DNA from: Chryseobacterium sp. T16E-39
GTDB taxonomy: Bacteria; Bacteroidota; Bacteroidia; Flavobacteriales; Weeksellaceae
Length of the DNA: 64,000 nt
Assembly (NCBI RefSeq): GCF_002216065.1
Contig: NZ_CP022282.1
Span: 1-64,000 of the forward strand
Direction: 5' to 3'
A program made the translations under genes and the position numbers. Below are positions 44,765 to 47,431 of the stretch, piece after piece. Under the pieces are notes generated by a model that searched no databases, was not told where the DNA came from, and saw nothing but the letters and a program-made list of their open reading frames with translations. The number at the start of each line of letters is the position of its first letter. Position 1 is the first letter of the stretch.

Positions 44765-45382
44765 TTATGAAGGCTGTTTTTGGAATACCAATTTTGACCA
44801 CATTACATTTTCTTTACCTTTTATCAGACTAGGCTGGTTTTCAAGGAACATAAGGGTCTTGAATCCCAATTGTTCGGCATGTCTTATTGTTTTTTCTCCA
44901 TTGGTATCATAAATATGACTTCCCACACCTGCTGGTCCATTTCGGAGAGTTAGCGCAAAAATACCATTGGGAGCTGTAAGACTGGCAATTTTGGATATAG
45001 AAAGATATTGCTCTTCAGGGGCAAGATGATGCCAGATTCCTGATGCTAATACAAAATCAAATAAGATATCAGAATTTTTTAATGTTGTAAGCTCTGGTAA
45101 AGAATCGTCGAGCCATTCAATAGTAGAATCCGGGAACAGTTCTTTTCCTAGTGTTCGGAACTCTTGTAGAGGCTCTACTGCCGTCACAGAATGTCCCATT
45201 TCAGAAAATACAGCAGCATCTCTTCCTATTCCGGCACCAATATCAAGAATAGAACCTGGTTTTTTAGGAATAAATTGAATAAAATCCTGATGGAGCTCAA
45301 AAAAATCGATCGAAAGAGTGGCTTTCGTAAATTTTTCCAGAGCTTCAACATAGCCTCGGGTTCCGTAAATTTCCTTTTTCAC
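44765..45382 (-). CDS. Class I SAM-dependent methyltransferase near the Cys-rich peptide gene
   Basis: 205 residues with motif I SILDIGAGIGRDAAVFSEMG (about 42-61), motif II VTAVEPL (about 64-70) and post-motif FVLASGIWHHLAPEEQ typical of small-molecule or protein methyltransferases with a Methyltransf_25/11 domain. The substrate is unknown. It is encoded 77 nt downstream of the cysteine-rich leader peptide gene on the same strand, with a terminator hairpin in between, so limited read-through could link them. Whether it modifies that peptide is pure speculation. Confidence 0.88.
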   Translation of the reverse strand: MKKEIYGTRGYVEALEKFTKATLSIDFFELHQDFIQFIPKKPGSILDIGAGIGRDAAVFSEMGHSVTAVEPLQEFRTLGKELFPDSTIEWLDDSLPELTTLKNSDILFDFVLASGIWHHLAPEEQYLSISKIASLTAPNGIFALTLRNGPAGVGSHIYDTNGEKTIRHAEQLGFKTLMFLENQPSLIKGKENVMWSKLVFQKQPS

Positions 45383-45412: not shown

Positions 45413-45432
45413 AGACAGGTTTTCACCTGTCT
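45413..45432 (-). terminator. Terminator after the Cys-rich peptide gene
   Basis: On the minus strand AGACAGGT-GAAA-ACCTGTCT, a perfect 8-bp stem with a GNRA-type loop, followed by TTTC. It lies 28 nt after the peptide stop and 30 nt before the methyltransferase start. Confidence 0.7.
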
Positions 45433-45459: not shown

Positions 45460-45624
45460 TTATGCTAACTGTGGACAAACCACAGCAGGGCAGATCAATC
45501 TTGGACATCTTGGTCTTCCGTCAGTAGGGCAACATTGATTTGAGCATCCTACAATGATAATTCCAGCTCCTGAAACTGTTCTCAATTCTTCTCTAGATAG
45601 TTTTTTGATAGGTAAATTTTTCAT
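45460..45624 (-). CDS. Cysteine-rich RiPP/bacteriocin-like precursor peptide with double-glycine-type leader
   Basis: A 54-residue frame too short for most gene callers. It starts MKNLPIKKLSREELRTVSGA, a leader of the bacteriocin class (MKxLKKLSREELKxVxGG/GA) known in chryseobacteria and other Bacteroidetes; a cut is expected after the GA at 19-20. The core of about 34 residues begins GIIIVGCSNQCC and has six cysteines (27, 31, 32, 40, 45, 50), four of them in CP pairs, and ends CPQLA. No C39 peptidase, ABC exporter or cyclodehydratase lies in the window, so processing would be in trans. A promoter-like TTG-N18-TATCTTTA lies upstream and a terminator downstream. The mature product and its job (bacteriocin, signal or metal binding) are unknown. 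Confidence 0.8.
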   Translation of the reverse strand: MKNLPIKKLSREELRTVSGAGIIIVGCSNQCCPTDGRPRCPRLICPAVVCPQLA

Positions 45625-45664: not shown

Positions 45665-45693
45665 TAAAGATAAAAAAAACTAATAAATAACAA
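45665..45693 (-). promoter_or_regulatory. Promoter candidate of the Cys-rich peptide gene
   Basis: Minus strand TTG (45693-45691), 18 nt, TATCTTTA (45672-45665), one base off the -7 consensus TAnnTTTG, 40 nt before the ATG. Confidence 0.5.
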
Positions 45694-45781: not shown

Positions 45782-47431
45782 ATGTTTGATAAACAACAAC
45801 GAAAACTGAAAAGATCCGCCAGACTGATCTCCGTATTAAGTAAATATGGATTTAAAGATATGCTGGCAAGAATGAATGGAGGGAATAAGCAAGAAGAGGA
45901 TTCTGGAAATTCCGATGAAATTATATCAAAAGGGACAGTTTATGAAAGGATCAGATTGGTTTTGGAAGAATTGGGCCCCACATTTGTAAAATTAGGTCAG
46001 ACATTCAGCAACAGAGAAGATTTACTTCCACCAGAACTAATTCAGGAATTACAGAAGCTACAGGATAAAGTGGATACAGTCGAGATGAACGTCACTGAAA
46101 TTCTGGAAAATGAATTTAATATTTCCACTAAAGATCATTTTCAGGAAATTCAGGTACAGCCTTTAGCCACTGCTTCTATTGCTCAGGTGTACAAAGCTAC
46201 CCTGCTTGATGGAACAGAAGTGATTCTGAAAATAAAAAAGGCAGATGTACAAACGGTTATAGAGGATGACTTGCTTTTAATAAAAGATCTTGAAAAAATT
46301 GTTTCTTCGTATTCTGAAATAGGAGAGAAGCTTAATTTAAAACAGGCAATCTCCACTTTTGAAAAATCTTTGCTCGAAGAAGTTTCGCTGATCAATGAAA
46401 AGGATAATATTTTACAATTTGCCCGGAACTTTAAAAATAGTAAAGAAACCTATGTTCCGAAAGTCTATGAAGAATTCTCCAACAATAATGTTCTTTGTAT
46501 GGAGTTTATTGATGGGATCAAGGTAATAGACAAAGCTCAGCTTTTGGCCCATAATATTGATCCGGTAAAAATTTCTGAAGTAGGATTGAGATTATTTGTT
46601 TCGCAGATATTGGACTATGGTTTTTTTCATGCGGATCCACACGCAGGAAATATTTTGGTGAAAAAGGACGGAAAGGTTGTTTTCATAGATTTTGGAGCCG
46701 TAGGACAAATTCAGCCTAATGACAAGGAGATTCTTGAAAATCTTATTGTGAGCTTTGTTGCTAAAAACTCACACAAAATAGTCAGATACCTGAAGAAAAT
46801 GGCTATTAGCTATGAGATTCCGGATGAAAGGAGATTTGAAAATGATGTGAATGACATTCTGAACTTTGTTCACAGTTCTTCATTACAGGAGATCAATGTC
46901 CAGGTGATGATCAATAAAATGAAAGATATTCTTAAAGATAACCGACTGCATATGCCGGATTATTTTTATCTGTTATTTAAAGGAATCAGTCTCATAGAAG
47001 GAGTAGGAAGGACAATTAATCCTGATCTCGATATTGTAAAAAGTCTTAGCCCGTACACAAAAAAAATATTTGCTAAAAAAATTAGCCCGAAGAATATTTT
47101 AAAGACAGGAATGGATAAAATGATGAATTTTACAGATAATGTTGATGAAATTCCCAAGGAACTTCGTTCTGTCTTACAGAAACTGGATGAAAATAAATTT
47201 ACTATTTCCAGTGAAATTAAAAATATCGACAAGACCAATCAGATTATCAAATCGAGTGCTATTAATATGATATTAGCTTTAATTCTCGGTGCAAATATGA
47301 TTGCGACAGCCATTGTTTTTGTTTCAGAGGCTCCGCCCCGAATAGGAGAAATGTCGTTAATCGCTGTTTTAGGTTTTATCTTTTCAGTGATATTGGTTGT
47401 GATCATTTTGCTTAGAATAACAAGGAAATAA
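45782..47431 (+). CDS. ABC1/AarF/UbiB-family atypical kinase
   Basis: 549 residues. GPTFVKLGQTFSNREDLLPPELIQELQKLQDKV contains the KxGQ motif that defines the UbiB family; ATASIAQVYKATLLDG is the A-rich nucleotide loop. FFHADPHAGNILV and KVVFIDFGAVG give the catalytic Asp and DFG-like metal site. Two C-terminal transmembrane helices (about 495-545) end the protein. Members support ubiquinone or menaquinone synthesis or lipid handling at the membrane as ATPases. No quinone genes lie nearby, so its partner is unknown. It stands divergent from the Cys-rich peptide gene. Confidence 0.94.
   Translation: MFDKQQRKLKRSARLISVLSKYGFKDMLARMNGGNKQEEDSGNSDEIISKGTVYERIRLVLEELGPTFVKLGQTFSNREDLLPPELIQELQKLQDKVDTVEMNVTEILENEFNISTKDHFQEIQVQPLATASIAQVYKATLLDGTEVILKIKKADVQTVIEDDLLLIKDLEKIVSSYSEIGEKLNLKQAISTFEKSLLEEVSLINEKDNILQFARNFKNSKETYVPKVYEEFSNNNVLCMEFIDGIKVIDKAQLLAHNIDPVKISEVGLRLFVSQILDYGFFHADPHAGNILVKKDGKVVFIDFGAVGQIQPNDKEILENLIVSFVAKNSHKIVRYLKKMAISYEIPDERRFENDVNDILNFVHSSSLQEINVQVMINKMKDILKDNRLHMPDYFYLLFKGISLIEGVGRTINPDLDIVKSLSPYTKKIFAKKISPKNILKTGMDKMMNFTDNVDEIPKELRSVLQKLDENKFTISSEIKNIDKTNQIIKSSAINMILALILGANMIATAIVFVSEAPPRIGEMSLIAVLGFIFSVILVVIILLRITRK

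Follow-up and report, generated by a model that had tools for sequence, protein, structure and literature searches.

The window analyzed here is a stretch of 64,000 nt, positions 1 to 64,000 of the single-contig genome of Chryseobacterium sp. T16E-39. On its minus strand, an ATG at 45624 opens a frame of 54 amino acids that ends with a stop codon at 45462-45460. This translation agrees exactly with the original prediction, which described a 54-residue minus-strand frame with six cysteines in a 34-residue core, four of them in Cys-Pro pairs. The frame (45460-45624, minus strand) carries MKNLPIKKLSREELRTVSGA at its head, and the 34 amino acids that remain after residue 20 form the core. The core cysteines are residues 27, 31, 32, 40, 45, and 50 (spacing C-x3-CC-x7-C-x4-C-x4-C), and proline directly follows four of the six. 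A Pfam scan of the peptide matched no family. Assuming three disulfides, the computed monoisotopic mass of the core is 3545.70 Da.

Coordinates of the precursor gene, its putative signals, two neighboring genes, and the distant exporter gene
Feature	Position	Strand	Basis
Precursor gene, 54 aa plus stop	45460..45624	-	Translation and coding constraint
Leader, residues 1-20	45565..45624	-	NF047798 score over cut-off and alignment; cleavage site predicted
Core, residues 21-54, six Cys	45463..45564	-	Alignment, pN/pS, and mass; disulfides predicted
Promoter-like pair, TTG-N18-TATCTTTA	45665..45693	-	Consensus match only; 40 bases before ATG
Terminator-like hairpin	45413..45432	-	Pattern scan and folding
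ABC1-type kinase gene, flanking (name is our own reading)	45782..47431	+	Context only
Methyltransferase gene, downstream	44765..45382	-	Neighbor test
Operon PCAT	3872144-3874336 (own genome)		C39 match

The gene had also been credited with promoter-like and terminator signals of its own. The upstream pair is a consensus match to the Bacteroidota promoter type, and inspection by eye showed its TATCTTTA element, unchanged or little altered, ahead of the gene in many relatives. A scan for sigma-70-type promoters returned three sites against 2.3 expected, and a sigma-70 promoter was rejected because this count is what chance predicts. The terminator-like hairpin was flagged by the pattern scan on the plus strand only, and the minus strand downstream of the gene folds with a z score of -5.7.

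Of 173 genomes of the genus, the own one counted, 140 have a match to the window peptide at E<=1e-4; some of these matches may be paralogues, as is a second match in the own genome. A scan of named genomes gave 45 loci, 44 from genomes titled Chryseobacterium and one from a genome titled Weeksellaceae bacterium. Selection was assessed on 45 intact sequences, the window plus 44 relatives, after exclusion of one locus (L053) with a broken frame. The pN/pS ratio was 0.083 for residues 27-52, 0.39 for the spacer (residues 21-26), 0.41 for the leader (residues 1-20), and 0.23 overall; within residues 27-52 the third position varies at all 26 codons, the first at nine, and the second at four. In an alignment of 25 of the 46 peptides (window plus 45 loci), all six cysteines are invariant. 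The grounds on which the original prediction was to be given up, a lack of conserved homologs or of coding constraint, were looked for in these 45 loci and were not found. The frame is a real gene. Its short length is what might suggest a chance frame or a decayed gene, but the breadth of the matches across the genus and the variation of third positions with little amino acid change refute that reading, and we regard its probability as negligible. In the excluded locus (Chryseobacterium sp. RU37D, L053:5001-5126) the frame diverges from the others past the CC pair and ends early.

The chromosomal place of the gene is also largely kept. The ABC1-type kinase gene was found at 43 of the 45 loci and a C-N hydrolase gene, a name that is again our own reading, at 42. 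The methyltransferase gene was present at only two, so it is probably unrelated to the peptide and was rejected as a partner. Among the six neighbor genes tested at the 45 loci, no third gene was tied to the peptide as an immunity gene would be. None of the six stands beside the peptide in Chryseobacterium gilvum GMJ5 (L036), and the hydrolase alone of those tested was found at L053. Because the cysteine region is little changed over most of the genus, the peptide probably does something conserved. Strong conservation of the core argues against a fast-evolving bacteriocin, and a cysteine region so conserved at one fixed place fits an arms race no better than it fits a steady task. The sequence, and hence the expected mass, varies little between species, which makes this core a good first target.

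The leader family is already known to NCBI. Residues 1-20 scored 26.6 bits against NCBIfam NF047798 (cut-off 23.5), or 24.8 bits when the model was searched against the whole genome, so the proposal of a double-glycine-type leader is upheld. NF047798 (leader_Chryseo, 'bacteriocin-like protein') is an 18-position leader model that covers no core; five of seven related peptides scanned with it exceeded the cut-off and two fell under it (L012, 23.3 bits; L028, 21.6 bits). Double-glycine peptides exported by PCATs have Gly at position -2 and Gly, Ala, or Ser at -1 of the cleavage site, as G19-A20 of the window peptide does, and cleavage is predicted after this pair. G19 is invariant in the 25 aligned peptides, and in some of them residue 20 is Asn, which is unusual directly before a double-glycine-type cleavage site. 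Leaders of this type had been described as established in Bacteroidetes RiPP or bacteriocin-like families; the double-glycine type stands, RiPP-type modification beyond disulfides is unnecessary, and the leader proves to be an NCBI family that already has a name. The window peptide is not a member of the CCPGW family of putative bacteriocins (NF047792; 18.3 bits, cut-off 80), to which its similarity is weak and extends into the leader. At two loci the window-type gene has a tandem partner immediately downstream that encodes a diverged peptide of its type (L009:5386-5541 and L021:5329-5496); the one in L009 scored 33 bits against the same CCPGW cut-off of 80.

A search for further genes with this leader, as had been suggested, was productive. 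NF047798 gave 60 matches at E<=10 in the 4.87-Mb genome, 31 of them over the cut-off, and 57 could be read as peptides after two weak partial matches and one at 1145997, inside a 439-aa frame, were left out; start codons were chosen by hand. The cores are of many kinds, and the cysteine number is even in 55 of the 57: six in 35 peptides, four in 17, and eight in three. Each of the remaining two has five. Even numbers were likewise found in 52 of 54 distinct leader peptides from the operon regions of 20 other genomes, against 24 of 44 leaderless frames of similar length with at least four cysteines from the same regions (p 8e-7). An alternative control with a threshold of at least three cysteines (24/83 even) is unfair because three is both odd and common. 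Even counts over cores of so many kinds suggest disulfides. Ten of the 57 have the order C-C-CC-C-C, that of animal and plant knottins; the window core differs from knottins in its order, C-CC-C-C-C, which it has in common with three other peptides of the genome.

Several other members of this set stand apart. A five-cysteine leader peptide at 3075210-3075263 (L099) and one in another genome (L123:8153-8320) have cores that are 77% identical over 26 residues; these break the even-cysteine rule and might be joined chain to chain or have a binding role. An 89-aa leader peptide at 995223 (L107) has a long Gly/Val-rich stretch and four cysteines, is unlike the other cores, and looks from its sequence like a membrane-active type. 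Arrays of six and seven leader peptides (1267013-1268757 and 2360992-2362525) lie >100 kb from all four of the PCAT exporters described below.

The absence of processing or export genes near the peptide had been noted from the start, and all six C39 matches in the genome indeed lie outside the window, with none in 1-64000. Four of the six are C39-peptidase exporters over the cut-off, so the exporters that were to be sought elsewhere do exist. One of them lies in an operon (region L122) with the order VKOR-thioredoxin fusion, cysteine peptide with an aberrant leader, PCAT, leader peptide, and HlyD adaptor. The PCAT carries DCGPTCL and NHF motifs, which we take to be its catalytic residues. The fusion joins VKOR to Thioredoxin_4 and has the six conserved cysteines expected of such a disulfide-making enzyme: the VKOR part supplies two pairs and the thioredoxin part a CGFC motif, and none of the six varies among the 21 sequences compared. 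No other VKOR in the genome exceeds the cut-off (the second match has 16.9 bits), and no DsbB candidate reached the cut-off in the same genome. Against solved structures the fusion gave DsbA-like and copper-resistance thioredoxin-type matches, and its VKOR matches were weak (E 0.16 and worse). The N-terminal part of the fusion scored 17.3 bits against C39, under the cut-off, and hhalign gave a probability of 0.85% against C39 domains; leader recognition by the fusion is speculation because this C39-like part matches so weakly. The peptide between the fusion and the PCAT in this operon (L122:8411-8587) has four cysteines and GTGG in its aberrant leader, and matches no Pfam or NCBIfam family.

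Each of the three other PCATs has neighbors of a different system: LanB/LanC-type genes at one, a radical SAM gene at another, and at the third a gene that matches JmjC weakly (19.9 bits, cut-off 22). L111:7989-15879 holds a class I lanthipeptide cluster that includes a PCAT; a pinensin-type precursor (leader_pinensin, 44 bits) is encoded there on the opposite strand. Of L118:6704-10549 and L114:7962-11733, one has the radical SAM gene and one the weakly JmjC-like gene; each also has a small GG-containing frame that may be its precursor and matches no NCBIfam family.

Operon regions from 20 other genomes were then compared. They are a non-random choice, two taken for a window-type core beside the fusion, thirteen mostly for a near leader, and five for diversity, which inflates the number of leaders counted within operons. 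Counted by hand, the fusion and PCAT are consecutive on one strand in 17 of the 20 (in one region the PCAT is split, and in two it was not found within the region), and leader peptides lie between fusion and PCAT in 14. In two regions, a window-type core lies between fusion and PCAT, with 83% (L123) and 90% (L124) identity over 30 residues; the L124 peptide matches that of C. gilvum GMJ5. More widely, 11 of the 57 peptides of the own genome have a core relative in an operon region of another genome, and ten of these 11 lie >15 kb from their own operon. One such relative, L123 8153-8320, is on the opposite strand beyond HlyD. That the same kind of peptide stands in cis in some genomes and is an orphan in others is the best evidence for action in trans.

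The leader and the fusion also occur together. Across 197 genomes of the family, all that were drawn, the leader (E<=0.01) was present in 65 and the fusion (E<=1e-10) in 67; 61 genomes have both, four the leader alone, six the fusion alone, and 126 neither (p 1e-38). Within the genus, leader and fusion are both present in 48 of 50 genomes and both missing from two; outside it, the corresponding counts are 13 both, four leader alone, six fusion alone, and 124 neither (p 4e-11), and the pattern recurs in several genera. These p-values are too small because the profiled genomes share ancestry. The four genomes with the leader alone (G016, G018, G107, and G178) have one or two weak leader matches each, and in the six with the fusion alone (G022, G055, G101, G109, G111, and G137) it is a fragment or has 29-38% identity. 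Some of the 61 fusions are poor as well (26% identity in G057, fragments in G126, in pieces in G003 and G155, partial in G194), and some contain stops. The radical SAM gene that lies by one of the other PCATs, used as a control, was found in 43 of the 197 genomes and 24 of the 65 with the leader; its association with the leader is weak over all 197 (p 8e-4), and outside the genus there is none (p 0.31). In a sample of 296 genomes at the level of the order, which partly comprises the same genomes, NF047798 (E<=0.001) was found in 31 and the fusion (E<=1e-20) in 47, including all 31 leader genomes. The other 16 genomes belong to another family, and in them the fusion scores lower and the leader is missing; the fusion is thus not tied to NF047798-type leaders alone. 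The best fusion outside the family is in G377 (L143), where a VKOR fusion (47%), PCAT (64%), HlyD (42%), and leader peptide stand together, which suggests that the whole operon was transferred between families.

These data lead us to propose that the 20-residue leader of the window peptide would be recognized by the PCAT encoded elsewhere in the genome, which would cut after G19-A20 and export the 34-residue core with the adjoining HlyD adaptor. VKOR uses quinone as an electron sink; the VKOR-thioredoxin fusion would form disulfides and hand them to the core, giving a mini-protein with three. The operon would act in cis on the peptides that it encodes and in trans on dozens encoded elsewhere in the genome, the window peptide among them. 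We consider it likely that the window peptide is such an orphan substrate, with its leader cleaved and its core exported and given three disulfides by the distant operon in trans. We infer the cleavage site, disulfides, export route, and trans action from sequence; the original prediction had already implied a maturation system acting in trans, and operon linkage and co-occurrence support it.

As to function, we lean, tentatively, toward an antibacterial or competitive peptide of the bacteroidetocin type. We place this ahead of the rather unlikely reading that the peptide is not a weapon and leaves the cell, under a bacteriocin-type export tag, to act as a signal, in biofilm, or at the surface, as the EbfG proteins exported by PteB would exemplify. 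The latter would sit well with a cysteine region that is nearly invariant and kept at one chromosomal place, and with the lack of an immunity-like third gene among the six neighbors tested; there is also precedent for double-glycine peptides that are not bacteriocins in the part of the literature on EbfG considered here (PMC4997328). The lack of an immunity gene says little, however, because bacteroidetocins too are without obvious immunity genes in the sections of that report drawn on here (PMC6671954).

The chemistry of the core was weighed in the same way. ChrA is a RiPP of Chryseobacterium made by MNIO chemistry, and the window core could in principle carry enzymatic cross-links of that kind, or lanthionines or thioethers, instead of plain disulfides; two of the other PCATs in the genome do have a lanthipeptide cluster and a radical SAM gene, respectively, next to them. 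We consider this improbable. No match to PF05114 at E<=0.001 was found in the own genome, and MNIO chemistry was rejected on that ground. Lanthionines were rejected because the lanthipeptide cluster has its own precursor with another leader (leader_pinensin is not among the matches of the window peptide) and because the core offers a single Ser and a single Thr beside its six Cys. The radical SAM gene was rejected as a partner on its weak co-occurrence with the leader, which does not exceed chance outside the genus, and the probable precursors at the two remaining PCAT loci have no NCBIfam match. Six cysteines within 34 residues might suggest a metal-binding peptide with free thiols outside the cell, but the linkage to a disulfide-making enzyme and the even cysteine number of almost every leader peptide, whatever the kind of core, make this more improbable still than enzymatic cross-links.

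Taken further, the findings may point to a genome-wide secretion program for disulfide-knotted mini-proteins, in which a single operon (PCAT, HlyD, and a VKOR-thioredoxin fusion devoted to peptides) would oxidize and export dozens of diverse cores behind one shared leader, ten of the 57 with the knottin order of cysteines, while genes shuttle between the operon and orphan locations. On this view the window peptide, retained over most of the genus, would belong to the set permanently and have a conserved task, and would not be a bacteriocin. We regard this as possible, with more doubt than confidence. In the open-licence literature searched (titles and the beginnings of abstracts; most subscription papers lie outside it), a VKOR-PCAT operon was not described as a general maturation system. 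If the proposal is true, one oxidizing export system releases a large repertoire of cysteine-knitted mini-proteins from the cells of a Gram-negative genus. That would give a testable route to a family labeled merely 'bacteriocin-like protein', account for the many leader genes that stand alone without export genes, suggest a role for the genome's only clear VKOR, and offer a natural way to make disulfide-rich peptides.

Several known systems can be set beside this one. A survey of Flavobacteriaceae and Weeksellaceae describes, in the part considered here, many genus-specific RiPP clusters in Chryseobacterium (PMC10734526); orphan precursors would probably be missed by a cluster search. The Chryseobacterium RiPP with ChrH/ChrI comes from the same genus, but it is reported to require a DUF692/MNIO enzyme (PMC10214503), and an MNIO gene was not found here. 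EbfG1-4 of Synechococcus elongatus are small double-glycine proteins with a role in biofilm, whose export is helped by PteB; as proposed here, several small double-glycine proteins share one C39-peptidase protein, whereas the sections of that paper considered describe no disulfide-forming partner comparable with the fusion (PMC4997328).

The closest likeness is to the bacteroidetocins, which are also cysteine peptides of Bacteroidota (35-50 residues long) with a double-glycine leader. From the sections of the report drawn on here, their peptide gene shares its region with genes for a C39-type peptidase ABC exporter and a five-TM protein and, in most cases, for a thiol oxidoreductase; deletion of the TM or oxidoreductase gene attenuated activity, the four genes sufficed in E. 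coli, the leader is cut after the double glycine, and gel shifts were consistent with disulfides (PMC6671954). Bacteroidetocins kill Bacteroidales, and their target, according to the portion of a second paper considered, is BamA (PMC8546649). The operon described here resembles this gene set (PMC6671954), with the VKOR and thioredoxin parts fused; our guess is that the five-TM protein corresponds to the VKOR part. Such a gene context is absent at the window locus and present, with the fused VKOR-thioredoxin, for close relatives of the peptide in L123 and L124. The bacteroidetocin leader has 15-16 residues, and bacteroidetocins A and B have four cysteines in 42 (PMC6671954), whereas the window peptide has a leader of 20 and six cysteines in 34; the bacteroidetocin peptide gene, moreover, lies in cis, whereas here scattered genes by the dozen seem to depend on a single operon. 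Because leader length, cysteine number, and location differ, we suggest that the window peptide works like the bacteroidetocins and is not one of them.
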